Shown in pieces: positions 1 through 26,524 of a DNA stretch of 64,000 bases. A program made the position numbers and the translations under genes. Position 1 is the first letter of the stretch, and the number at the start of each line of letters is the position of its first letter. The DNA is taken from NCBI GenBank assembly GCA_035533595.1, contig DATLTN010000052.1, forward strand, positions 1-64,000, given 5' to 3'. The notes under the pieces are model-generated. The model was not told the origin of the DNA. It saw nothing but the letters and a program-made list of their open reading frames with translations, and made no database searches. The stretch is from Acidimicrobiales bacterium. Lineage in GTDB: Bacteria > Actinomycetota > Acidimicrobiia > Acidimicrobiales > Bog-793.

Positions 1-553
1 GATTCGGTAATGACAGGAGACTCTTGAAGCTTGCGATCGAGGACTTCGTCGAGGCGACGATTACGTTCGGCGATGGTGGCGTCGAGCCAATGAATGCCTC
101 GCGCGCGATGTTGAAGTTCACCCCCTTGAATGCGTTCGTCAGCTGGTCGAGGATGTCCGCTGGGATGTTGCCCTCGCCGATCGTGAGGCCGTCGGGTTTC
201 GACGCCGCGAGCGCGTCTTGGCCGGGAATGAGGTTGCCAGTCGGAATGTTCTCGACGTTGAAGGTCGCTCCCAGGTACTGCCCCATCGCGACACTGAGGT
301 CGCGCCCGAGCTGATCGACGCTTCCCCCCACTGAGGACGGGATGATAAAGGTGACGGTCTTGCCTTTATAGAAGTTCAGCCCCTTCTGTAGGGGGGTCAA
401 CTTCTTCAATGCCGTCGAAGCTGAAATCGCCGCGGGCAGTAGCAGTAGCCCGGTGCAGGAAAGCGTGAGGAGCGCGGAGACCATGATCGATCGTCTGTGG
501 TGTCGTCCACCTGATCGTCCCGGCGCATTGCCAGATTGAAAGTGCCCGCCCAT
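1..553 (-). CDS. Tripartite tricarboxylate-type solute-binding protein (TctC/Bug family), 3' end outside window
   Basis: This gene runs off the left edge of the window. From ATG 553 it encodes an arginine-rich N terminus and a hydrophobic signal segment (around residues 24-42), followed by YKGKTVTFIIPSSVGGSVDQ. This matches the first beta strand and ligand loop of TctC/Bug periplasmic binding proteins. Further on, NIPTGNLIPGQDALAASKPD corresponds to the family's conserved pattern of P-G-x-x-x-x-G-x-x-x-x-A-x-x-x-P-D-G. AAGGAG lies a few bases before the ATG, supporting this start. The family captures carboxylates or related small organic acids outside the cell and hands them to TctA/TctB membrane proteins, which would lie outside the window if present. 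It is co-directional with the amidohydrolase and cupin genes, so it may supply their substrate (inference). Confidence 0.85.
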   Translation of the reverse strand, partial: MGGHFQSGNAPGRSGGRHHRRSIMVSALLTLSCTGLLLLPAAISASTALKKLTPLQKGLNFYKGKTVTFIIPSSVGGSVDQLGRDLSVAMGQYLGATFNVENIPTGNLIPGQDALAASKPDGLTIGEGNIPADILDQLTNAFKGVNFNIAREAFIGSTPPSPNVIVASTKSSIASFKSLLSLPN

Positions 554-615: not shown

Positions 616-1701
616 TCAGTCGGTAGCGAGGCCGTAGAAGGCGGCGGCGTTCACGCGCGTGAGCCGGTCGCTCGCGGTGGCAGGTATGTCTGGCCGTTCG
701 ACGATCCGCGTATGCGCTCCCCAGACAGACGCGCGGTCCGGGTGCCCGTAGTCCGAGCCCACGATCAGGCTGGCGTCGCCCACCTCGGAGATGATTTGGG
801 GGAGATCCTCGCTCACTTCGCAAGTGACGAACAGGCGCCCTTCAGCTAGCACTTCGCGATTGCGCTCCTTGGCCCGCTCGCTCCCCGCGCCGAGTGCGAC
901 GTCCTTGCTTTGGTCGGCGCGCGCCGACCAAAGCACGTGCGCAAGCCATCCTGCACCCGCCTCGATGAAGCCGATCCGGAGGGTCGGGTAACGCTCGGGG
1001 AGCCGTGATTTGAGCACCCGGGAAAACGCGTCCTGGACGTAGAGTCCGGACTCGAGGCCCGTCTGCAGCCGGGTCATCAGATCTGTCACGATCCGATACG
1101 GACGCGCCGAGTGTAGACAGATGGGCAGATCGAGCCCCTGTGCCAGCTCGTAGACCGGAGCGAAGTAGGGGTCTGCGACGTTGCGGTCGCCGCATTCGAT
1201 CCCTCGCTTGAAGATGCCACAGGCCCCCGCGTCTCGAGCCCGCCGGATTTCGGCGAGCGCGTCAGGGATCGAGCTGAGCGGTGCCACCGCGACCCACTGC
1301 AGCCGTCCGTCGCTCTCCGAGCAGCGGTCGGCGAGCCAGCGGTTGTAGCTCTCGCAGAGCGCGATCTCGAGCTCCGGCCGCCGAGTGAGCTCGTTGAGGA
1401 AGAGCGTCGGATAGATGACGTGATGGCTGACGCCGAGCTCGTCCATGTCTTTCACCCTGGAGCGCACATCGTGGAGCTCCCGAGCTTCGACCGTGGTTCC
1501 AGTGCGCTCATCGCTGCGTACTTGCCGCTGGAAGAGCTGTCCATCGATGAACCACGCCCGGTGATAACCGGGGCGGAGGTAGGAGGGGGCACTCCCCTCG
1601 AGGAATGTCATTGTGCCGGGTCGCAGCTCCTCCCTGGACTTCGGAAAGTACGACCATGTGTCTTCGCACTCGTCAACGTGCGTGTCGGCGTCAATGAACA
1701 T
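616..1701 (-). CDS. Amidohydrolase 2 family metal-dependent hydrolase/decarboxylase
   Basis: The 361-residue product has the amidohydrolase_2 (PF04909, ACMSD/resorcylate decarboxylase-like) layout. The first-strand motif is MFIDADTHVDE, the central metal-ligand region contains LHSARPY, GFIEAGAGWLAH follows, and the late aspartate lies in VGSDYGHPD. I chose ATG 1701 because GGGAGG lies 9 bases upstream and the protein then begins directly at the first barrel strand; in-frame upstream ATGs would add an unconserved arginine-rich tail. These enzymes hydrolyse or decarboxylate cyclic or aromatic carboxylates using a single zinc or manganese ion. It lies just downstream of the cupin/ferredoxin/cupin genes and upstream of the solute-binding protein, suggesting one catabolic cluster. 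The exact substrate cannot be read from the sequence. Confidence 0.85.
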   Translation of the reverse strand: MFIDADTHVDECEDTWSYFPKSREELRPGTMTFLEGSAPSYLRPGYHRAWFIDGQLFQRQVRSDERTGTTVEARELHDVRSRVKDMDELGVSHHVIYPTLFLNELTRRPELEIALCESYNRWLADRCSESDGRLQWVAVAPLSSIPDALAEIRRARDAGACGIFKRGIECGDRNVADPYFAPVYELAQGLDLPICLHSARPYRIVTDLMTRLQTGLESGLYVQDAFSRVLKSRLPERYPTLRIGFIEAGAGWLAHVLWSARADQSKDVALGAGSERAKERNREVLAEGRLFVTCEVSEDLPQIISEVGDASLIVGSDYGHPDRASVWGAHTRIVERPDIPATASDRLTRVNAAAFYGLATD

Positions 1702-1851
1702 CGACTGCATCCTCCCTGCGTCGATCCCGGCACTCGGCCGTTTCATGTGCGTACTAGCGGGCCGCACCGGGGCCGCGCCTCGGTTCCCAAAGCTGGTTCC
1801 GGTACGTCGCTCCTTCTGCCCCTCACGGCTCTAGCCGCCGGGCCGGCGTGC

Positions 1852-2274
1852 TCAGCTGTCGATGGGCTCGAGCTTTTCGACCTGGCGGTGAGGGATGCGC
1901 CCGACCCGCTCGGGGAGTGGAGTGACGTCGGTGCGTGTCGGCGTCACGCGTGGATCACGACCTGTGATGTGCATAACCTCGAGCGGCTCCTCGGCGAGGG
2001 ACTCGAACCAGTACTTCGTGCCCGAGGGAAGCACGATCATCTCGTGCTTGTTGAGCACGTACTTCTTGTTGTCCTCGTCGTAGAACGCCGCGGTTCCCGC
2101 GAGCACGAACCACATCGAGTCGACGCCGTTGTGGGCGTGGAGGTTCGTCTCGCCGCCGCTTCGGACAACTTGTACCTGGGTCCCAAGAACCTCGGTCGAC
2201 CAGATGTCGACGAGATCCTTCACGTTCCCAATGTCCTCGGGGAGCTCGTAGCGATAAGCAGTTGGCTTGGGCAT
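1852..2274 (-). CDS. Single-domain cupin protein (paralogue A)
   Basis: The 140-residue protein is one cupin barrel. Motif 1 is GGETNLHAHNGVDSMWFVL, with two histidines, and motif 2 is in the region MIVLPSGTKYWFES. The second motif lacks the usual histidine, so metal binding may rest mainly on the HAH pair. It is a clear paralogue of the cupin at 2600-3028: HAHNG, AAFY, PSGTKYWFES and the tail DPRVxPxRTDVT are shared. AGGGAAGGA precedes ATG 2274. The two cupins bracket a ferredoxin gene on the same strand. The function is not assignable; a small oxygenase, isomerase or ligand-sensing protein serving the neighbouring amidohydrolase is plausible. Confidence 0.85.
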   Translation of the reverse strand: MPKPTAYRYELPEDIGNVKDLVDIWSTEVLGTQVQVVRSGGETNLHAHNGVDSMWFVLAGTAAFYDEDNKKYVLNKHEMIVLPSGTKYWFESLAEEPLEVMHITGRDPRVTPTRTDVTPLPERVGRIPHRQVEKLEPIDS

Positions 2275-2375
2275 GTGAATCCTTCCCTCTCAGGTGACGC
2301 TCTCTCGACTCCTCGGTGGAACCGGCGAGATCTCGGGGCGACGTTTCGCCCAACGGCAATTGGGGCTCGATGGCG

Positions 2376-2600
2376 CTAGGCGTCGTCGACAATGAAGATC
2401 GACTCGGTTGGACAGCTCCTCGCCGCCTCCTCGACCGCCGCCCGGAGCGACTCGCCGGGCGTTTCGTCGAGCAGGTAGAGGCACATGTCATCGCGTACCT
2501 CGAAGACCGTAGGAGCGGCCCGCATACAGTTCGCGTGACTCTCGCAGGTGTCGAAGTCGACTATTACGCGCAAGACACGCCCGGCCTGATCCATCGCCAT
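2376..2600 (-). CDS. Small ferredoxin with CxxHxxC...CP cluster motif
   Basis: The 74-residue protein follows the pattern of single-cluster ferredoxins associated with cytochromes P450 and ring oxygenases. It has VDFDTCESHANC (C19, H22, C25) and a late SCP (C63). Histidine replaces the second cysteine of the usual CxxCxxC motif; mycobacterial ferredoxins with such substitutions bind [3Fe-4S] or His-ligated [4Fe-4S] clusters. Its ATG overlaps the stop codon of the upstream cupin by one base (TGATG), so the two are translated together. No P450 or ferredoxin reductase gene is in the cluster. Its electron acceptor is unknown; the Rieske oxygenase at 25238-26524 is too distant to assign. Confidence 0.85.
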   Translation of the reverse strand: MAMDQAGRVLRVIVDFDTCESHANCMRAAPTVFEVRDDMCLYLLDETPGESLRAAVEEAARSCPTESIFIVDDA

Positions 2601-3028
2601 CAGGCGGGGATCGCGACGATCTGTTCGGCCTGGACGTGCGGGGTGGCGCCGACGCGGGCGACCCGGTCGCGCGAGGTGACGTCGGTGCGAGAAGGGGCGA
2701 CGCGGGGGTCCTTGGCGCCGATCCGCACTATCTCGAGCGGCTCGTCACTAGCGGATTCGAACCAGTACTTCGTCCCCGACGGGAGGACCACCATCTCGTG
2801 GCGTCCGATGAGCAGTCGGTCGCCGTCAGCGTTGTAGAAGGCGGCCTGGCCACCGAGCACGAGCCAGACGGCATCCTCGCCGTTGTGGGCGTGGAGGTTG
2901 GTCTCGCCGCCCCCGTTGACGATCTGGATGCCCACTGACAAGAGCTCAGTCCGCATCACATCGACCGCCGTCTTCGGCCGGGCCTTGGCCTCAGGAGGCA
3001 TCTCGTAGTGGAACGCCTGTTGCGCCAT
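2600..3028 (-). CDS. Single-domain cupin protein (paralogue B)
   Basis: The 142-residue cupin carries the same motifs as its neighbour at 1852-2274: GGETNLHAHNGEDAVWLVLG and HEMVVLPSGTKYWFES. The C-terminal tail DPRVAPSRTDVT is also conserved between the two copies. GGAAGGGA lies 5 bases before ATG 3028, nearly the same ribosome-binding arrangement as cupin A. The gene is the first of the cupin B / ferredoxin / cupin A set. Conservation outside the barrel core indicates gene duplication rather than independent recruitment. They may act as a heterodimer or on successive intermediates (inference). The substrate is unknown. Confidence 0.85.
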   Translation of the reverse strand: MAQQAFHYEMPPEAKARPKTAVDVMRTELLSVGIQIVNGGGETNLHAHNGEDAVWLVLGGQAAFYNADGDRLLIGRHEMVVLPSGTKYWFESASDEPLEIVRIGAKDPRVAPSRTDVTSRDRVARVGATPHVQAEQIVAIPA

Positions 3029-3340
3029 CTCAGTCCCTTCCCGTCAGGAGTGGAGCCCGTGTGCAACACATTGCAGACCGTATCTAGCTAGGTCTTCCTA
3101 AGCTCGATCCCCGAACCATGTCCATATACCGCCGTTGAGCAGACCGTACCAATGAAAAGGCGGCCTTGCTTGCCGATAATGTTAGGAGCCCGAAGTTCAC
3201 TTAGCAAGCAGTAGGCTGTAATCGATTGCAGAATCGTTGCGTCAAAACTCGATCCACCGACTGGCTGTCGGGTGTGCCCGAGCGGTCCGGAGTGAGGTTG
3301 GCGCCAGCGTGATGTCGCCCCAGTCCGACACCTGGACGTG

Positions 3341-3843
3341 ACGGACCAAGGTTTCGTGTCGTTCTCGATTGTCAGCGCATCGGTGGGCGTCTGCGGCTGC
3401 GGCGGTGACGGATTCGAGCTGACGGACGTGGCCGAGGGCGAAGGCGCGGGGAGGAAGGTCCCGAGCGTGGAGGGCACCTCGACCCGTTGGCCGAGCACGG
3501 TGGCGGTCCCACCGGCGCGGAGCACGTTCGCATCGTCGATGTGGCTCGCACCGGCGCAGATCGCATGCACGAGCGTGAGCACCTCGCGGCCGGGGAGTGC
3601 GCCGCCAACCCGGCCGCGAAGGCGCACCGTGTCGTTCACGAGCCGCTCGACACCGAGCCGGGCGGCGAGCGTCGCGATGAGCACAAGACCAGCGTTCGCG
3701 ACGGGCGTCGGCTCATCGAAGGTCACCCGGATGCGGTCGAGAGCGCGCGATACCGACAACACACAAAGAGCCTCTCGGTGCTGGTGTGAATTGCGACTCA
3801 GGTATCGCCATTCACCCCAGCCAGAGAGGCCTTTTTGGGTATG
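3341..3843 (-). mobile_element. Decayed 5' end of an IS1380-like insertion sequence (left copy)
   Basis: Read on the minus strand, a terminal sequence CCCAAAAAGGCCTCTC (about 3827-3842) is followed by an N-terminal transposase fragment from about 3762. The fragment reads VTFDEPTPVANAGL, then LAARLGVERLVNDTVRLRG, ALPGREVLTLVHAICAGA, SHIDDANVLRAGGT and VPSTLGTFL. These match the conserved start of IS1380-family transposases. The frame then breaks near 3445, where two extra C bases appear to follow TTCCTC; a different frame continues as RAFALGHVRQLE. No catalytic DDE core remains, so the element is inactive. The lower-GC stretch at about 3060-3340 downstream has no recognisable gene and may be further debris. 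Confidence 0.8.
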
Positions 3844-3925
3844 ACCAGGAGCGGTGATCAGCCCTGGTTAATCGGTGGATCGAGGCTAACACGTACCATG
3901 TTTGGCCCCAGTTAGGCTCTCGGCC

Positions 3926-4972
3926 GTGACGACCCTCCGTGACATCGCGCGTGAGACGGGATGCTCCACGGCGACGGTCTCGCGCGCCCTCAACGGCGCC
4001 GCCCATGTCGACCCGAAGACTCGCAGACGCATCGAGGCCGCAGCAACAGCCCTCGGCTACCGATCGAACGTCCTCGCACGCGCGCTCAGGCGACACCAGT
4101 CCGGAACGATCGGCCTCGTCATTCCAAGCCTTGAGAAATACAACTACGCCGCGGCGGTCCGCCTGCTGCACGACGCGCTCTCCGCGGAGGACTATCAGCT
4201 CATCCTGTGCTGCCACCGCGACGACCCCGCGCTCGAGCTCCGCGCGCTCCAGTCACTTGCCGATCGCCAAGTTGACGCGATCGTCCACGTTCCCTTCGAT
4301 GACGCGGGCGCCGCCGCGCTGCTGCAGCTGGCGGAGCCGCTGCCGATCGTCGAGCTCTACCGCCGCTCGCGCGCAACCGACGTCGACGCTGTCGTAGGCG
4401 ACGACGAACGGGGCGGCCACGACCTCGCCGAGCACGTGCTCGCTGCCGGGCACCGACGGATCGCACTGGTCATCGGCGGTGCAGAGCTGAGCACCACCAA
4501 GGGCCGGGTCGCCGGCTTCTCGCGTGCGGTGCGCGAGGCAGGGGTCTCAGCTGATGACTGTCCCGTCTTTTACGGGACGTCGGGACTCGCGTGGGGCCAG
4601 CAGGTGGTGGACGAGCTGCTGGCCGCCGCCGACCCGCCGACCGCGATCATCACCGGCAGCACCCAGATCGCGCTCGGGGCGATGCAGCAGCTCGTGAGAG
4701 CCGGTGCGCAGATCCCCCGTGACGTCTCCTTCGTGGCCTATTCGAACGCCGACTGGTGCGAACTCATGAGCCCCCCGGTCACGACGTACGAGATCCCCCA
4801 GCCGGAGATGGGTTTGATGGCGGCGCAGTTGCTCCTCAACCATCTGCGGCCGTCGATCGACCACGATTTGCAGCCTCGCACCGTAAGCTTCTCGGGGAGA
4901 CTGTTAGTACGTGCCTCGGTGGGTGCCCCCCGCCAATATCGCCCACTGCGTAGTGGCGTGCTCGTCGGCTAA
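3926..4972 (+). CDS. LacI-family transcriptional regulator
   Basis: The 348-residue protein (from GTG 3926) starts with a LacI helix-turn-helix and hinge: TTLRDIARETGCSTATVSRA followed by ALNGAAHVDPKTRRRIEAAA and LGYRSNVLARAL. The periplasmic-binding-protein-like effector domain begins at GTIGLVIPSLEKYNYA and runs to VSFSGRLLVRAS, the usual family length. GTG 3926 puts the HTH at the extreme N terminus. No good Shine-Dalgarno sequence is visible, so leaderless translation is possible. The gene stands alone between two outward-facing IS1380-like relics. It most likely represses a carbohydrate or organic-acid uptake gene; its target is not evident. Confidence 0.9.
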   Translation: MTTLRDIARETGCSTATVSRALNGAAHVDPKTRRRIEAAATALGYRSNVLARALRRHQSGTIGLVIPSLEKYNYAAAVRLLHDALSAEDYQLILCCHRDDPALELRALQSLADRQVDAIVHVPFDDAGAAALLQLAEPLPIVELYRRSRATDVDAVVGDDERGGHDLAEHVLAAGHRRIALVIGGAELSTTKGRVAGFSRAVREAGVSADDCPVFYGTSGLAWGQQVVDELLAAADPPTAIITGSTQIALGAMQQLVRAGAQIPRDVSFVAYSNADWCELMSPPVTTYEIPQPEMGLMAAQLLLNHLRPSIDHDLQPRTVSFSGRLLVRASVGAPRQYRPLRSGVLVG

Positions 4973-5017
4973 CCCTCGATCCACGCTTTGACCATGGCGG
5001 AAGTGAGGCACTTGGCC

Positions 5018-5228
5018 CGACCAAAAAAGGCCTCTCCTGCTGGGAGAATGACGATTGTCGAAGTCGTCCTATCCCAAGCAACGGGAGGCACTTTCTGTGT
5101 CGTCACTATCGCCCACGCCGAACTGAATCGGCAGGCTTCGACGAGCCGAGCCTTGTCGCCGACGCCGGGTTGAGGGTGCCCGCAACGCTTGCGGTGCGCC
5201 TCGGCCTCGCCAGCAGATTAATAGACAG
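5018..5228 (+). mobile_element. Decayed 5' end of an IS1380-like insertion sequence (right copy)
   Basis: The plus strand begins CCAAAAAAGGCCTCTC and aligns, with small gaps, to the terminal 100 bp of the relic at 3341-3843. The shared order is the A-run plus GGCCTCTC, GAATG-CGAT, GAGGC-CTTT-TGTGT and a TATCGC block. About 30 bases further on, from 5133, one frame reads FDEPSLVADAGLRVPATLAV then RLGLASRLIDS. This is homologous to the transposase N terminus of the other copy (FDEPTPVANAGL, LAARLGVERLV). The two copies are clearly diverged, so they come from different insertions or an old duplication. This copy stops at about 5228, just before the ribosome-binding site of the next gene. Only the 5' end survives. 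Confidence 0.75.
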
Positions 5229-5286
5229 CCCCCTGTACCCTCCACCACATCACGCCGCCGCGGGCGGCCGAACCGAGGAGGTCGCG

Positions 5287-5655
5287 ATGCACGCGCACGA
5301 GACGCTGGACGAGCTCAGGGGGGAAGGTCGCGCTCTCCGGGAGCTGATCCCGGAGGTCTACTCGGGCTATGTCCGCCTCTCGGGGGCGGCGATGGCCGAG
5401 GGAACCCTTTCGACGCGGTTGAAGGAGCTCATCGCGCTGGCAGTGAGCGTCACGCGCGAGTGCGACGGCTGCATCGCCGCCCATGCACGGGGTGCGGCGC
5501 GTGCCGGGGCGGGCGCGGCCGAGGTCGCCGAGGCGATCGGGGTGGCCATCATGATGAACGGTGGCCCGGGAACGGTTTGGGGCCCACGGGCCTATGCCGC
5601 GTTCCTCGAGTTCGCCGCCGCCCCCGCGGAGGGACAACCCTTAACCTCTAGTTGA
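5287..5655 (+). CDS. Carboxymuconolactone decarboxylase / AhpD-like protein
   Basis: The 122-residue alpha-helical protein has the AhpD/CMD motif ECDGCIAAH, i.e. a CxxC pair with histidine three residues later. It is preceded by LSTRLKELIALAVSVTR and followed by the helix GAAEVAEAIGVAIMMNGGPG. With the CxxC-xxx-H arrangement, the protein probably has thiol peroxidase or disulfide reductase activity rather than lactone decarboxylase activity. ATG 5287 is preceded by GAGGAG at 5275-5281. The frame is open further upstream, but that part encodes the IS1380 relic and should not be included. The promoter may now lie within the transposon remnant. Confidence 0.85.
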   Translation: MHAHETLDELRGEGRALRELIPEVYSGYVRLSGAAMAEGTLSTRLKELIALAVSVTRECDGCIAAHARGAARAGAGAAEVAEAIGVAIMMNGGPGTVWGPRAYAAFLEFAAAPAEGQPLTSS

Positions 5656-5660
5656 GCTTG

Positions 5661-5682
5661 AGCTGAGAGTCCCAGCTCAGCG
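5661..5682. terminator. Possible bidirectional hairpin between convergent genes
   Basis: GCTGAG (5662-5667) can pair with CTCAGC (5676-5681) around an 8-base loop. It sits where the AhpD-like gene and the minus-strand pncB gene converge. The stem is short and no T-run follows, so this is only a weak terminator candidate. Confidence 0.25.
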
Positions 5683-6999
5683 CGCCCGAAGGCGGTGATG
5701 GAGCTCCTCGGCGAGATCGGCGAGCGTGCTGCTCAGCTGCGGTGTGCGCTGTTCCGGCGCCTCAAGCTCCCGCAGCGCAGCAGGGAGGTGGGCGAGCTCG
5801 TGCGCACAGCGGGCCGCCGCCTGCTCAAGGGGGTTGACCGAGAATGCCTGGCGCCGACCACCCACCAGCATTGGCTCGAGCAGGGGGGTCGTGCCAGCGG
5901 GCGGTGCCTCGCCGCGGAGGCCGAGCGTGTCGTGGAAGTCCGCGGCGCGGAAGACCTGCTTGGCCCCAGGCAGGGTGACTTTCCCCTCGGAGAGCTTGGC
6001 GACGGGGCGGCCGTCGAACTCGACGAGCTTGTAGGCGCTGTCGAGGTAGGGGGCGTCGGCGATCGTGACGAGGCGGGTACCGATGCCCATCGCGTCGATC
6101 GGCGCTCCACCGGCGACGAGCGGGGCGATCTGGTACTCGTCGAGCGCGCCGGAGACCATGATCCGCACGCCGGTGAGCCCGGCGGCGTCGAGGGCGGCGC
6201 GTGCCTGTCGAGTGACGACGGCGAGGTCCCCGCTGTCGATGCGGATCGCGGCATGCTCCTCGAGGCCGCGGGCCTTGATCACCGAGATCGCGTGCTCGAC
6301 ACCGCGGCCCTGGTCGTAGGTGTCGACGAGGAAGGTCGAGCGGCCGGGGAAGTCCTCGGCGAAGGCGTCGAAGGCAGCCCGTTCATCCTCGAAGGCCTCG
6401 ATGTAGGAGTGCGCCATCGTCCCCGCCGCGACGAGGCCGTAGATCCGCGCGGCCTCGACGTTGCTCGTCGCCGAGAAGCCGGCGATCGCGCTGCCGCGCG
6501 CCGCGAGCATCGCCGCGTCGATGCTCTGTGCCCTGCGCATCCCGAACTCGACGAGGCCGATCTCGGAGCCGGCGGCAAGGCGGCAGCGGGCGGCCTTGGT
6601 GGTGACATTGGTCTGGAAGGTGAGCTCGTTGAGGAGCATCGTCTCGACGAGCTGGGCCTCGGCGATCGGTGCGGTGACCTCGACGAGGGGCTCGTTGGCG
6701 AGGACGACGCGGCCCTCGGGAACTCCCCAGACGTCACCGGTGAACTCGAGACCGTCGAGCGCCGCGAGCTGGGACTCGTTGAAGCCGAGCCCTTCGAGGG
6801 TGGCGAGCTCCTCGGCGCCGAAGTGCAGGTCCTCCAGCCAGTCGAGGCACTCCTCGATCCCCGAGGCGATGAGGAAGCCCCGTGAGGCGGGGAGCTGGCG
6901 GACGAAGAGGCTGAAGGTCGCGAGCCCGTCCATTCCCCGCGTCCGGTAGCTCGCGGCCATGTTCAGTTCGTAGAGGTCGGTGCGCAGCGAGGTCGGCAT
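5677..6999 (-). CDS. pncB: Nicotinate phosphoribosyltransferase
   Basis: The 440-residue protein starts LRTDLYELNMAASY, the classic N terminus of nicotinate phosphoribosyltransferase. It contains GFLIASGIEECLDWL, a middle segment EFGMRRAQSIDAA, VDTYDQGRGVEHAI, and the phosphate-binding region IRIDSGDLA ... IMVSGALDEYQI ... AMGIGTRLV. The enzyme converts nicotinate and PRPP, with ATP, to nicotinate mononucleotide in the NAD salvage (Preiss-Handler) pathway in the cytoplasm. ATG 6999 was chosen because the upstream extension is serine-rich and overlaps the preceding gene. It begins 4 bases after the stop of the D-2-hydroxyacid dehydrogenase gene, so the two are probably cotranscribed, perhaps linking NAD supply to an NAD-dependent enzyme. 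Confidence 0.93.
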   Translation of the reverse strand: MPTSLRTDLYELNMAASYRTRGMDGLATFSLFVRQLPASRGFLIASGIEECLDWLEDLHFGAEELATLEGLGFNESQLAALDGLEFTGDVWGVPEGRVVLANEPLVEVTAPIAEAQLVETMLLNELTFQTNVTTKAARCRLAAGSEIGLVEFGMRRAQSIDAAMLAARGSAIAGFSATSNVEAARIYGLVAAGTMAHSYIEAFEDERAAFDAFAEDFPGRSTFLVDTYDQGRGVEHAISVIKARGLEEHAAIRIDSGDLAVVTRQARAALDAAGLTGVRIMVSGALDEYQIAPLVAGGAPIDAMGIGTRLVTIADAPYLDSAYKLVEFDGRPVAKLSEGKVTLPGAKQVFRAADFHDTLGLRGEAPPAGTTPLLEPMLVGGRRQAFSVNPLEQAAARCAHELAHLPAALRELEAPEQRTPQLSSTLADLAEELHHRLRAR

Positions 7000-7003
7000 C
7001 GCG

Positions 7004-7954
7004 CTACTCGATGACGCGGATCGGCTCACCCGCGAGGAAGGCGGCGATGTCCTCGACCGCGTCGCTGTACATCGCCTCCATGCCCTCCTCGCTCACGTAG
7101 CCGAGGTGCGGGGCGAGCACCGCGTTCTCGAGGGCGAGGAAGGGGTGCCCGGTGGGCAGCGGCTCGACATCGAAGACGTCGAGGCCGGCGGCGGCGATGC
7201 GCCCGGCGCGGAGGGCGTCGACGAGCGCCTGCTCCTCGACGATCGGCCCCCGCGAGGTGTTGATCAGGACCGCGCTGCGCTTCATCGAGAAGAAGTCGTC
7301 GGCGCCGAGCAGGCCGCGGGTCCTCCTGCTGAGGAGGAGGTGGATGGAGAGCACGTCGGAACGCTCGAGGAGTGCCTGCTTGGTCACGAGCTCGACGCCG
7401 ACCTCGTCGGTGCGCGCTGCGGTGAGGTTCTCGCTCCAGGCGACCACCTCCATGCCGAAGGCGCGGGCGGCGGGGACCATCGCCGAGCCGAGGCGACCGA
7501 GACCGAGGAGGCCGAGGGTCTTGCCGGAGAGGAGGGCAGGGAAGCCGAGCTGCCAGTGGCCGGCACGGATCGCCGCGTCCTCGATGACGGTGCGCTTGGT
7601 CGTGGCGAAGATCAGCGACCAGGCGATCTCGACCGGCCCGGCGCTGCCGCTGCCGCCGGTGCCGGCGTAGGTGATGCCGCGCTCGCGCAGGCACTCGCGG
7701 TCGACCGCCGCGTTCACCATCCCGGTCGTCACGACCAGCTGCAGACGGGGGAGCTGTTCGATCACCTGGCGGGGGAGCGCGGTGCGTTCCCGCATCAGCA
7801 CCACGATGTCGAACTCGGAGAGGATGCCGACGAGGGTGTCCTCGTCCATCGCTCGGAAGAAGAAGCGGAGCGTGACGTCGTAGCCGAGCGCCGCCCAGTC
7901 GGCGAGGGCGTGTGCGCGGCCCTGATAGTCGTCGAGCACGGCGACGGCGGTCAT
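7004..7954 (-). CDS. D-2-hydroxyacid dehydrogenase family protein
   Basis: The 316-residue protein has the two-domain D-isomer-specific 2-hydroxyacid dehydrogenase fold. The Rossmann glycine motif is in LGLLGLGRLGSAMVPAARAF. The catalytic arginine lies in INTSRGPIVEE, the glutamate in GLDVFDVEPLP and the histidine in LAPHLGYVSEEG. It oxidises or reduces a 2-hydroxy/2-oxo acid with NAD(P). ATG 7954 gives MTAVAVLDDYQG, the normal start of this subgroup. The upstream promoter region is shared with the divergent MFS gene (8029). Downstream it is tightly linked to pncB. The substrate is unknown; 3-phosphoglycerate is unlikely because no ACT domain follows. Confidence 0.88.
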   Translation of the reverse strand: MTAVAVLDDYQGRAHALADWAALGYDVTLRFFFRAMDEDTLVGILSEFDIVVLMRERTALPRQVIEQLPRLQLVVTTGMVNAAVDRECLRERGITYAGTGGSGSAGPVEIAWSLIFATTKRTVIEDAAIRAGHWQLGFPALLSGKTLGLLGLGRLGSAMVPAARAFGMEVVAWSENLTAARTDEVGVELVTKQALLERSDVLSIHLLLSRRTRGLLGADDFFSMKRSAVLINTSRGPIVEEQALVDALRAGRIAAAGLDVFDVEPLPTGHPFLALENAVLAPHLGYVSEEGMEAMYSDAVEDIAAFLAGEPIRVIE

Positions 7955-8028
7955 GGTTCGAGTCTCACGGACTTTCCGACGGTCGTCCAACGGCCGCCCC
8001 GGCGGGCGCCGGTAGGGTCGGGGCGACG

Positions 8029-9252
8029 ATGAGGCGGCGACTCGCGGTGGTGGCGGTGCTCTTCGTCGTGTTCTGCACGACCTTCGCGAGCAACGGCCCG
8101 TCGATCCTCTACGTCGTCTACCAGGGCAAATACCACTTCACCTCGCTCACGGTGACGGCGATCTTCAGCGTCTACGCGGTCGCCGTGCTCGCCACGCTGC
8201 TCGTGGTCGGCCGCCTCTCGGACGTCGTCGGCCGACGCCCCCTGCTGCTCGCTGGTGCGGCGCTGCTCGTCGCGAGCGCGCTGCTCTTCGCGCTCGCCCG
8301 TTCGGCCCTGTGGCTCTTCGCGGCGCGCGCCCTGCAGGGCGTCGCCACCGGCACCCTCATCGCCGCGGCGGGCGCCTCGCTCGTCGAGCTCTCACCGCCG
8401 CGCCAGCGTCCGCGGGCCGCGCTGATGAACACCGTCGCCTTCCTCACCGGCGCGGCGGCCGGCTCGCTCGCCTTCGGGGTGATGGTGCAGTTCCTGCCGT
8501 CGCCGACGGTGCTCCCCTACGTGCTCGAGATCGCCCTCGACGGCGGCGCGCTGCTCGCGGTCGCGGTGCTGGTGATCGAGACGGTGACGCCCGGTGAGCA
8601 CGCCCGCTGGAGGCTGCAGCGCCCTTCGGTACCACGCGCCATCCTCCGCCCGTTCGTCGTCTCCTCGGTCACGATGGGGGTCGGCTGGTCGCTCGGCGGC
8701 GTCTACGGCGCGCTCAGCCCGACGATGACCCGCCAGATCCTGCACGTCTCGAGCCACCTCGTCGCCGGCGCCGTGCTCTGCACCTTCAACCTCGTCGGCG
8801 GGGTCGCGCAGCTTCTCCGCAGGCGGCACGGCGCCCGCGGCTCGATGCTGGCGGGGCTGGCCCTGGTGGCGCTCGGCGCGGCGCTCATCCAGCTCGCCTT
8901 CACCGCCCGCTCCTCGCTGCTGCTCTTCCTCGCCACGCTCTTCGGCGGAGCCGGAGCCGGGATGGCCTTCGTCGGGAGCCTCGCCCTCGTGAACGAGCTG
9001 GCGCCGGCAGCGCGCCGCGCCGAGGCGCTTGCGGCCTACAACCTGGTGGGCTATCTGGCGCTCTCGCTGCCGGTGATTGGTGTCGGCCTGCTCACGAGCG
9101 CGCTCGGCCTGCGCACCGCCTCACTGGTCTTCTGCTGCCTGCTGGTCGCCGCCGCGGGGCTGTTGGCGTTGCCGCTGCGGCGCGTCGGTGTCGCGGCCGA
9201 GGCGGTGGGGGAGCGGGGGCTCGGGGCCCGCCCTGCCGCTCAGGTGCGGTAG
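8029..9252 (+). CDS. Major facilitator superfamily permease
   Basis: The 407-residue membrane protein has about 12 hydrophobic helices. The first is LAVVAVLFVVFCTTFASNG. The loop 2-3 MFS signature VVGRLSDVVGRRPLLLAG is intact, and two six-helix halves are separated by a basic loop near ERARWRLQRPSVPRA-like sequence. ATG 8029 was preferred over upstream in-frame codons because it starts right before helix 1. The gene is divergent from the 2-hydroxyacid dehydrogenase and overlaps the 3' end of the convergent aldolase gene by 13 bases. It may export or import the organic acid processed by its neighbours; the sequence does not fix the substrate. Confidence 0.88.
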   Translation: MRRRLAVVAVLFVVFCTTFASNGPSILYVVYQGKYHFTSLTVTAIFSVYAVAVLATLLVVGRLSDVVGRRPLLLAGAALLVASALLFALARSALWLFAARALQGVATGTLIAAAGASLVELSPPRQRPRAALMNTVAFLTGAAAGSLAFGVMVQFLPSPTVLPYVLEIALDGGALLAVAVLVIETVTPGEHARWRLQRPSVPRAILRPFVVSSVTMGVGWSLGGVYGALSPTMTRQILHVSSHLVAGAVLCTFNLVGGVAQLLRRRHGARGSMLAGLALVALGAALIQLAFTARSSLLLFLATLFGGAGAGMAFVGSLALVNELAPAARRAEALAAYNLVGYLALSLPVIGVGLLTSALGLRTASLVFCCLLVAAAGLLALPLRRVGVAAEAVGERGLGARPAAQVR

Positions 9253-25237: not shown

Positions 25238-26524
25238 ATGCACATCACTGAGGAGATGAATGAGCGCCTCGTGCGCGTCGGTCCCGGGACCCCGATGGGT
25301 GAGGTGCTCCGTCGCTACTGGACGCCCGCCTGCCTCGCGGAGGAGATCGCCGAGCCGGACAGCCCGCCGATCCGCGTCCGCCTCCTCGGCGAGGACCTCG
25401 TTGCCTTCAGAGACTCCTCGGGCGAGGTCGGCCTCGTCGCCGCCTACTGCGCGCACCGCCTCGCACCGCTGTTCTATGGCCGCAACGAAGAGTGCGGGCT
25501 GCGCTGCGTGTACCACGGCTGGAAGTTCGACACCCAGGGCAACTGCGTCGACATGCCGTCTGAGCCGCCGTACTCCAAGTTCCGCCTGCGCGTCTCGATC
25601 AAGGCCTACCCGACCTACGAGGCCGGCGGCATCGTCTGGTCCTACATGGGCCCCGTCCGCGAGATGCCCGCTCCCCCCGACTACGAGTGGCTGCGAGCCC
25701 CGGTCGGCACGCACGTGCGCGTCTCGAAGACTGGCGAGCACTGCAACTGGCTGCAGGCGCTCGAGGGCGGCATCGACACCGCCCACTCGAGCTTCGCCCA
25801 CAACAACGACATCTCGAACACCAAGGCGCTGCGCAACCTCGACACGCACCCCACGCTCGAGGTCGACGAGAAGCCGTGGGGCTTCACCTACGGCTCGATC
25901 CGCAACATCTCCGAGGACCAGAGCTACGTCCGCGTCTACCAGTACATGATGCCCAACCAGCAGATGCGTGGTGGCCTCGTGAACGGTGCGAACGGCGAGC
26001 CGGCCAAGCACCCCGCGTTGAACGGTCACATCTGGGTGGCGATCGACGACGAGAACGTCTTCGCGTACAACATCAAGTACACCTCGGACGACTCGTGGGA
26101 GATGACCTTTGAGAGCTTCGACGCCGAGGAGCACCGTGGCGGGCGTGGCCAGGTCGACTACATCCCCGGCACGCACTGGCTGAAGTCGAACAAGTCCAAC
26201 GACTACAAGATCGACCGCGAGGTGCAGCGGACGAAGACCTTCACCGGCATCCACGGGGTGAACACCCAGGACTTCGCGCTGCAGAGCGCACTGGGCGGCG
26301 GGTACATCGAGCCCCGCCACCTCGAGGCCCTCGGCTCGACAGACCGCGCGATCTCCTCGATGCGCAAGCTCCTCCTCGAGGCCGCCGATGACGTCGAGGC
26401 CGGACGGTCGATCCGTGGCACCGACCCGACGGTGCTGCGCACCGCCCGTGCCGCGGACATGGTCATCCCCCGCGGCGTGCCGTGGCGCGACGCCAGCAAG
26501 GAGGCCACGGTCGCCTACTGGTAG
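25238..26524 (+). CDS. Rieske non-heme iron oxygenase, alpha subunit (phthalate 4,5-dioxygenase-like)
   Basis: The 428-residue protein has an N-terminal Rieske [2Fe-2S] domain. C71 and H73 are in AAYCAHRLAPLFYGRNE, and C90 and H93 in CGLRCVYHGWKFDTQGN. The C-terminal catalytic domain has the mononuclear iron site in LQALEGGIDTAHSSFAHNND. These motifs place it with phthalate 4,5-dioxygenase and related carboxylated-aromatic oxygenases. GGAGGGGAAAG leads into ATG 25238. No reductase partner is adjacent, so electrons must come from elsewhere. The gene is divergent from the F420-type nitroreductase. Codon use fits the surrounding genome. Confidence 0.92.
   Translation: MHITEEMNERLVRVGPGTPMGEVLRRYWTPACLAEEIAEPDSPPIRVRLLGEDLVAFRDSSGEVGLVAAYCAHRLAPLFYGRNEECGLRCVYHGWKFDTQGNCVDMPSEPPYSKFRLRVSIKAYPTYEAGGIVWSYMGPVREMPAPPDYEWLRAPVGTHVRVSKTGEHCNWLQALEGGIDTAHSSFAHNNDISNTKALRNLDTHPTLEVDEKPWGFTYGSIRNISEDQSYVRVYQYMMPNQQMRGGLVNGANGEPAKHPALNGHIWVAIDDENVFAYNIKYTSDDSWEMTFESFDAEEHRGGRGQVDYIPGTHWLKSNKSNDYKIDREVQRTKTFTGIHGVNTQDFALQSALGGGYIEPRHLEALGSTDRAISSMRKLLLEAADDVEAGRSIRGTDPTVLRTARAADMVIPRGVPWRDASKEATVAYW

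Follow-up and report, generated by a model that had tools for sequence, protein, structure and literature searches.

A truncated gene run in an Acidimicrobiales bacterium sets two cupins and a CxxHxxC ferredoxin beside a candidate amidohydrolase-related dinuclear oxygenase

Within the amidohydrolase family, PtmU3 and AibH2 are dinuclear monooxygenases (PMC7782822, PMC10401708, PMC10811679), and other oxygenases have been found through their Rieske ferredoxin neighbors in PF04909, a family of more than 100,000 largely uncharacterized proteins (PMC10811679). The known amidohydrolase-related oxygenases (AROs) lie near a Rieske-type ferredoxin gene, a neighbor that served as a finding aid and not as a defining trait (PMC10811679). 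The AibH1H2-AibG-AibF monooxygenase of Rhodococcus wratislaviensis (PMC7782822, PMC10401708) and the other AROs (PMC10811679) have a PF04909 barrel, six metal ligands and a second-sphere acid, with a ferredoxin gene in the operon and a transporter component nearby. A five-gene run with the same elements was found at the start of a 64,000-nucleotide stretch of DNA from an Acidimicrobiales bacterium (GenBank assembly GCA_035533595.1). This stretch, the window, spans base 1 to 64000 of contig DATLTN010000052.1 (C52) in an assembly of 2.79 Mb, 96% complete, in 73 contigs. The run differs from the AibH1H2-AibG-AibF system in having one amidohydrolase instead of two, two cupins and no visible reductase, and its ferredoxin is of the CxxHxxC, probably [3Fe-4S], type, whereas those of the described AROs are Rieske [2Fe-2S] proteins. 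Its genes are as follows.

2600..3028, minus strand: cupin A, 142 amino acids (aa), first gene in the set (open reading frame [ORF]; Cupin_2, E 2e-9)
2376..2600, minus strand: ferredoxin with CxxHxxC...CP, 74 aa (Fer4_13, E 2e-11)
1852..2274, minus strand: cupin B, 140 aa (Cupin_2, E 1e-9)
616..1710, minus strand: Amidohydro_2 protein, candidate amidohydrolase-related dinuclear oxygenase, 364 aa (Amidohydro_2, E 1e-14), with an alternative GTG start at 1767
2..550, minus strand: TctC-like solute-binding protein, N-terminal part only (weak match to Pfam TctC; resemblance to a full-length copy in the genome)

The genes follow one another in the order cupin A, ferredoxin, cupin B, Amidohydro_2, TctC-like. 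The ATG of the ferredoxin shares bases with the TGA stop of cupin A (TGATG), which makes translational coupling of the two plausible, and cupin B starts 101 bases downstream of the ferredoxin. The short spacing, the start-stop overlap and the shared direction of all five genes suggest a single transcript. Since the window starts at base 1 of the contig, part of the binding-protein gene is missing and the 3' end of the operon is not visible. A preliminary description of this DNA had noted two paralogous cupins that bracket a ferredoxin, share HAHNG and PSGTKYWFES and lack the motif-2 His, and this was borne out by the reading frames, the Pfam matches and the identity of the two proteins (given below). 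The coupling that it proposed between the ferredoxin and one of the cupins likewise fits the overlap with cupin A, and the co-directional amidohydrolase and TctC-type protein were found as it had stated, the latter cut by the contig edge.

The gene run is tentatively read, with a confidence a little short of even, as a truncated catabolic operon for an imported organic acid, in which the ferredoxin would feed an ARO and the cupins would process the product. The TctC-like protein would capture the substrate, presumably a carboxylate, on the outer side of the membrane and deliver it to a tripartite tricarboxylate transporter for import. The Amidohydro_2 protein, as a dinuclear (Fe/Fe or Mn/Fe) oxygenase, would then hydroxylate the substrate using O2, with electrons that the ferredoxin relays to it from a reductase whose gene lies elsewhere. 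The two cupins may be metal-dependent auxiliary enzymes that hydrate, isomerize or open the oxidized product. The step from ferredoxin to amidohydrolase is inferred from the shared operon and the ligand set of the enzyme, in a single case.

By sequence, the neighbors of the window amidohydrolase in the PDB were PtmU3, DitZ and AibH1H2. The metal ligands of AibH2 are D25, H27, H211, E265, D337 and H340 (PMC10401708), and its D342 is a second-sphere acid kept only in dinuclear members (PMC7782822); the mononuclear AibH1 carries His at this position. Residues H200, E250, D320, H323 and D325 of the window protein align exactly with H211, E265, D337, H340 and D342 of AibH2, and in a profile alignment D9-x-H11 falls on the first motif of PtmU3. 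All seven residues (D9, H11, H200, E250, D320, H323 and D325) were invariant across the window protein and seven relatives that are 34 to 42% identical to it. A PDB search with the profile of these eight sequences placed PtmU3 at the top with 102 bits, followed by 4dzi (78), the ARO 8sm9 (72) and DitZ (66); lower ranks were taken by the AROs 8sm8 (66) and 8sm6 (65), AibH1 (61), LigW (60), ACMSD (58) and AibH2 (50 bits). Foldseek on the predicted model also returned PtmU3 first (7e-18). With a PF04909 domain, a barrel fold in the predicted model, all six ligands and the acid D325, the protein is a candidate amidohydrolase-related dinuclear oxygenase with a full ligand set. PtmU3 (6omp), a diiron hydroxylase of a diterpenoid pathway, shares the ligand positions, but it belongs to natural-product synthesis, is about 20% identical and has Glu313 instead of Asp as the acid (PMC7782822). 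Two of the amidohydrolase relatives lie near Rieske oxygenase genes, one at L090 with the alpha gene 14 bases behind it and one at L036 with a TENA/PqqC-like gene in between; two others (L012 and L088) lie near CoA-transferase genes. At L036, positions 4493-9048 encode on one strand an ARO-like amidohydrolase, a 265-aa protein with no Pfam match, a TENA/THI-4/PQQC-family protein and a 537-aa Rieske-type oxygenase. An NCBIfam search with four of the amidohydrolase relatives gave no match, and plasmid matches to the amidohydrolase were weak (about 21 to 28% identity among the best 20 of 117).

The cluster motif of the ferredoxin, C-ESH-ANC...CP, has three Cys and is of the CxxHxxC type (Fer4_13/Fer4_15), and the cluster is probably [3Fe-4S]. 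The nearest solved sequences were the ferredoxin part of a CYP51 chain (6mcw) and 8amp. Ferredoxins with CxxHxxC(X)nCP are typical partners of cytochrome P450 (P450), the motif of the Mycobacterium marinum type being CXX?XXC(X)nCP (PMC6237146). The window protein resembles these in having a cluster motif with His; unlike them, it stands in a genome in which no P450 was found and lies on a branch separate from the P450-linked ferredoxins of its own family. In a tree of 26 sequences it grouped with an N-type ferredoxin of its own bacterial family (94/92), lying on the same side as the Rieske-linked ferredoxins and separated from those linked to P450 (81/97); trees are weak for proteins of 60 to 75 residues. 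Its nearest kin is a ferredoxin that occurs throughout this bacterial family and of which its own genome has a copy beside a gltX-like gene. Among 36 ferredoxin loci fetched from this family, a gene with a P450 motif directly preceded the ferredoxin in 8, and a Rieske alpha or beta gene was present in none.

Five other convincing ferredoxins of the CxxHxxC family are encoded in the same genome, three of them adjoining Rieske oxygenase genes: alpha and beta on C4, a beta-like gene on C68, where the alpha gene is lost to the contig end, and a LigXa-like alpha gene on C43. Two of the genome's Rieske operons also hold pairs of small proteins of about 78 to 93 and 107 to 109 aa (L032, 17838-18119 and 18747-19070; L031, 150-386 and 937-1266), which in both operons are interspersed, in one shared order, among the alpha, beta and ferredoxin genes; the two small proteins of the C4 Rieske operon had no Pfam match. 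Type V Rieske ring-hydroxylating systems (PhdABCD, PhtA; PMC2358900) are alike in their catabolic setting and probably in their ferredoxin, which is of the [3Fe-4S] type and often encoded away from the oxygenase. They differ in that the visible operon in the window has neither a Rieske oxygenase nor a GR-type reductase.

Cupins A and B are 53% identical over 136 aligned columns. Classical metal-binding cupins have a motif 1 of the form H-x-H-x(3,4)-E and a motif 2 with His. In both window cupins the Glu of motif 1 is replaced by Asp, while H46 and H48 are kept, and the motif-2 His was missing in all eight aligned members. The predicted structure of cupin A is a single-domain cupin (mean pLDDT 82); a fold search with it returned numerous generic cupins and no functional lead, and a PDB sequence search with the cupins gave two weak matches only. 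A scan of genome contigs found seven relatives, six of them close (45 to 49% identity), from Chloroflexota and one deltaproteobacterial assembly. A two-row cupin profile detected the subfamily in 1 of 396 genomes of the window's phylum at E 1e-20, namely its own genome; the counts were 2/298 genomes in the order at 1e-12 and 7/301 in Chloroflexota at 1e-30. Three partial matches at 35 to 42% identity and no close relatives were found on plasmids, and the viral contigs searched held no relatives of the cupins or the amidohydrolase.

To place the cupins, their neighborhoods were compared at 25 non-redundant loci picked by cupin score, mostly from Chloroflexota and one from a deltaproteobacterial genome (G665), with 20 controls that were arbitrary contig starts from the same genomes, some of them short. 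Hits of at least 40 bits within 6 kb of the cupin were counted and weaker hits were not, using profiles built in this analysis; genes came from a codon-based caller trained on hand-picked genes, or from plain ORFs for the AT-rich L090. Left out of the count were L012, L013 and L014 (duplicates of L098, L099 and L100), the weak relative L018, G662 and the window itself. A Rieske oxygenase alpha gene lay near the cupin at 9/25 loci versus 2/20 controls, and an amidohydrolase at 10/25 versus 2/20. One or the other was present at 15 of the 25 loci and 3 of the 20 controls (one-sided Fisher p 0.002; against only the controls of at least 9 kb, 3/15, p 0.015). A CxxHxxC-family ferredoxin was found at a single locus and in none of the controls. 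These counts indicate that the cupins belong to oxidative catabolism and have no fixed ferredoxin partnership, and a conserved cupin-ferredoxin-cupin cassette was rejected.

Two relatives illustrate the setting. The single locus with such a ferredoxin is L091, from a distant genome (Chloroflexota), where one strand encodes in succession a cupin, a BphC-like dioxygenase and a Rieske oxygenase, then a further cupin, from a different family, and the CxxHxxC ferredoxin. At 5137-6894 of this locus the Rieske alpha frame overruns the next cupin gene in another frame, possibly through a frameshift or sequencing error near the 3' end of alpha. In G662, a same-family relative, the cupin is part of a meta-cleavage cluster; its neighbors there are a LigB-type dioxygenase, assigned by Pfam, and, by reading, an IclR-type regulator, MhpE/MhpD-like genes and a Rieske oxygenase. 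In the meta-cleavage cluster of a relative at L047 (585-1837), the final part of an IclR-type regulator gene is shared with the cupin gene, and in another genome two cupins of this or a neighboring subfamily are adjacent on the same strand (L092, 9160-10273). By analogy only, LumY-like catabolic cupins of riboflavin degradation (PMC12746152) are similar: they are small, act once the ring has been opened and are encoded in a cluster that includes a Rieske oxygenase.

The TctC-like protein, a truncated sequence, scored 14.4 bits against PF03401 (cut-off 27, E 0.028), and its residues 4-147 were 51% identical to a full-length copy on C53, which itself adjoins a TctA-like gene. The genome encodes seven TctC-like binding proteins; the C-terminal half of the window protein was not found elsewhere in the assembly, as none of seven places fits. 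Two further features of the window bear on the alternatives.

3088..3762, minus strand: broken IS1380-like transposase, directly upstream of the operon (NCBIfam IS1380, 4e-11, below cut-off)
25238..26524, plus strand: Rieske oxygenase (Rieske, 2e-18; LigXa_C, 2e-28) on the same contig, a possible partner in trans in a rival reading

The IS1380 match of the transposase covers the first 102 of 419 model positions. The operon region has a GC content of 0.64, versus 0.71, and a GC3 of 0.75 to 0.87, versus a mean of 0.93, in the rest of the window; these lower values are consistent with acquisition. A LacI-family regulator gene (3926-4972), which adjoins the broken transposase, is flanked by imperfect inverted repeats of 37 nt (78%) at 3816-3852 and 5008-5044. 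These look like insertion-sequence ends; their core, AGAGGCCTTTTTNGGT, had no further copy in the window.

Several results weigh against an ARO fed by the ferredoxin. The VIA-align Z scores barely separated oxygenases from decarboxylases (DitZ, 32.0; PtmU3, 29.5; AibH1H2 chain B, 28.7; ACMSD, 28.7), and the amidohydrolase model was of moderate quality, with a mean pLDDT of 72 and low values around residues 322-326. Among 26 collected amidohydrolases, from which sequences of <230 residues had been dropped, 22 had the six ligands and 17 kept the acid too; the ligand set is common enough in this collection that its specificity may be lower than the papers suggest. A set of the form H-x-H...H...D, which we take to be that of ACMSD-type decarboxylases, was seen in 3/26. 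None of seven other loci with a close amidohydrolase relative had an adjacent CxxHxxC ferredoxin, and the pairing therefore stands on a single operon. Close amidohydrolase relatives were also not enriched near the cupins (3/25 loci versus 2/20 controls). The Rieske-type ferredoxin that neighbors known AROs is absent here, the adjacent ferredoxin being of the CxxHxxC Fer4_13/Fer4_15 type, and no reductase gene was seen among the visible operon genes, the rest of the genome not having been searched for a GR-type reductase.

The tentative assignment of the ferredoxin to an ARO was nevertheless ranked above a Rieske partnership, which appears unlikely but deserves to be taken seriously. Here the ferredoxin would be the [3Fe-4S] donor of a three-component Type V Rieske oxygenase whose gene lies past the end of the contig or in another part of the genome; the amidohydrolase would act at a later step, as a hydrolase, hydratase or decarboxylase, and the cupins would assist in ring fission. 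Type V systems of actinobacteria do use shared [3Fe-4S] ferredoxins whose genes are often apart from the oxygenase (PMC2358900), and the genome gave 20 Rieske-domain matches above cut-off, some of them contig-end fragments, with three of its five other ferredoxins adjoining Rieske oxygenase genes. The L091 row and the G662 cluster point the same way; the genome itself, L091 and the known Type V systems lend this reading independent support. However, there is no Rieske oxygenase in the visible operon, inside which the contig ends, and the nearest one on the contig, encoded by the opposite strand, lies at a distance of about 22 kb; moreover, the 0/36 count of Rieske genes at same-family ferredoxin loci and the grouping of the window ferredoxin with the N-type of its own family, rather than with Rieske-linked ferredoxins, argue against such a donor role.

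That same kinship would fit a quite improbable third explanation, in which the genes share no redox pathway and the general ferredoxin of the family was duplicated, one copy being captured by chance, through transposition, beside acquired cupins and an ordinary hydrolase. The copy near the gltX-like gene, the rarity of the cupin subfamily in the phylum and order, the reduced GC and GC3 and the broken transposase upstream are all in keeping with it, but the tight spacing, the start-stop overlap and the common direction of the five genes point to one transcript, and the same two families occur together again in L091. Least probable by far is a fragment of a P450 operon with the ferredoxin serving the P450. 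Such ferredoxins are typical P450 partners (PMC6237146) and eight of the family loci have the expected gene order, but the tree places the majority of P450-linked ferredoxins on the opposite side from the window protein, and PF00067 had no match in this 96% complete genome in a search whose control was positive in 7/14 known genomes. The P450 operon was rejected on the latter ground.

The proposal of a redox or catabolic role for an imported acid in the preliminary description gains support from the oxidative catabolic clusters in which cupin and amidohydrolase relatives lie. The cupin-ferredoxin-cupin unit of that description did not hold up: cupins and ferredoxin are largely separate in relatives, an outcome that it had named beforehand as refuting. 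The statement that the set lacks an oxygenase is also doubtful, given the complete ARO ligand set of the amidohydrolase, the operon cut by the contig edge and the Rieske-domain matches in the genome. The gene set was rightly judged odd, but it is less so than it seemed: a contig end truncates the operon, and one of the enzymes, the amidohydrolase, is a candidate oxygenase in its own right.

The element that is still new is the pairing of an amidohydrolase-related oxygenase and a CxxHxxC ferredoxin; no published ARO with a [3Fe-4S] ferredoxin was found in the open-licence PMC literature. It is possible, although rather doubtful, that an ARO with a P450-style CxxHxxC [3Fe-4S] ferredoxin in place of the Rieske ferredoxin, and with two paired cupins dedicated to processing the product, represents a new branch of electron transfer in this young class of oxygenases, in a bacterium without detectable P450. 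If CxxHxxC ferredoxins also serve PF04909 oxygenases, further mislabeled oxygenases would become findable, and the presence of several ferredoxins of the P450-partner type in a genome with no detected P450 would be partly explained.

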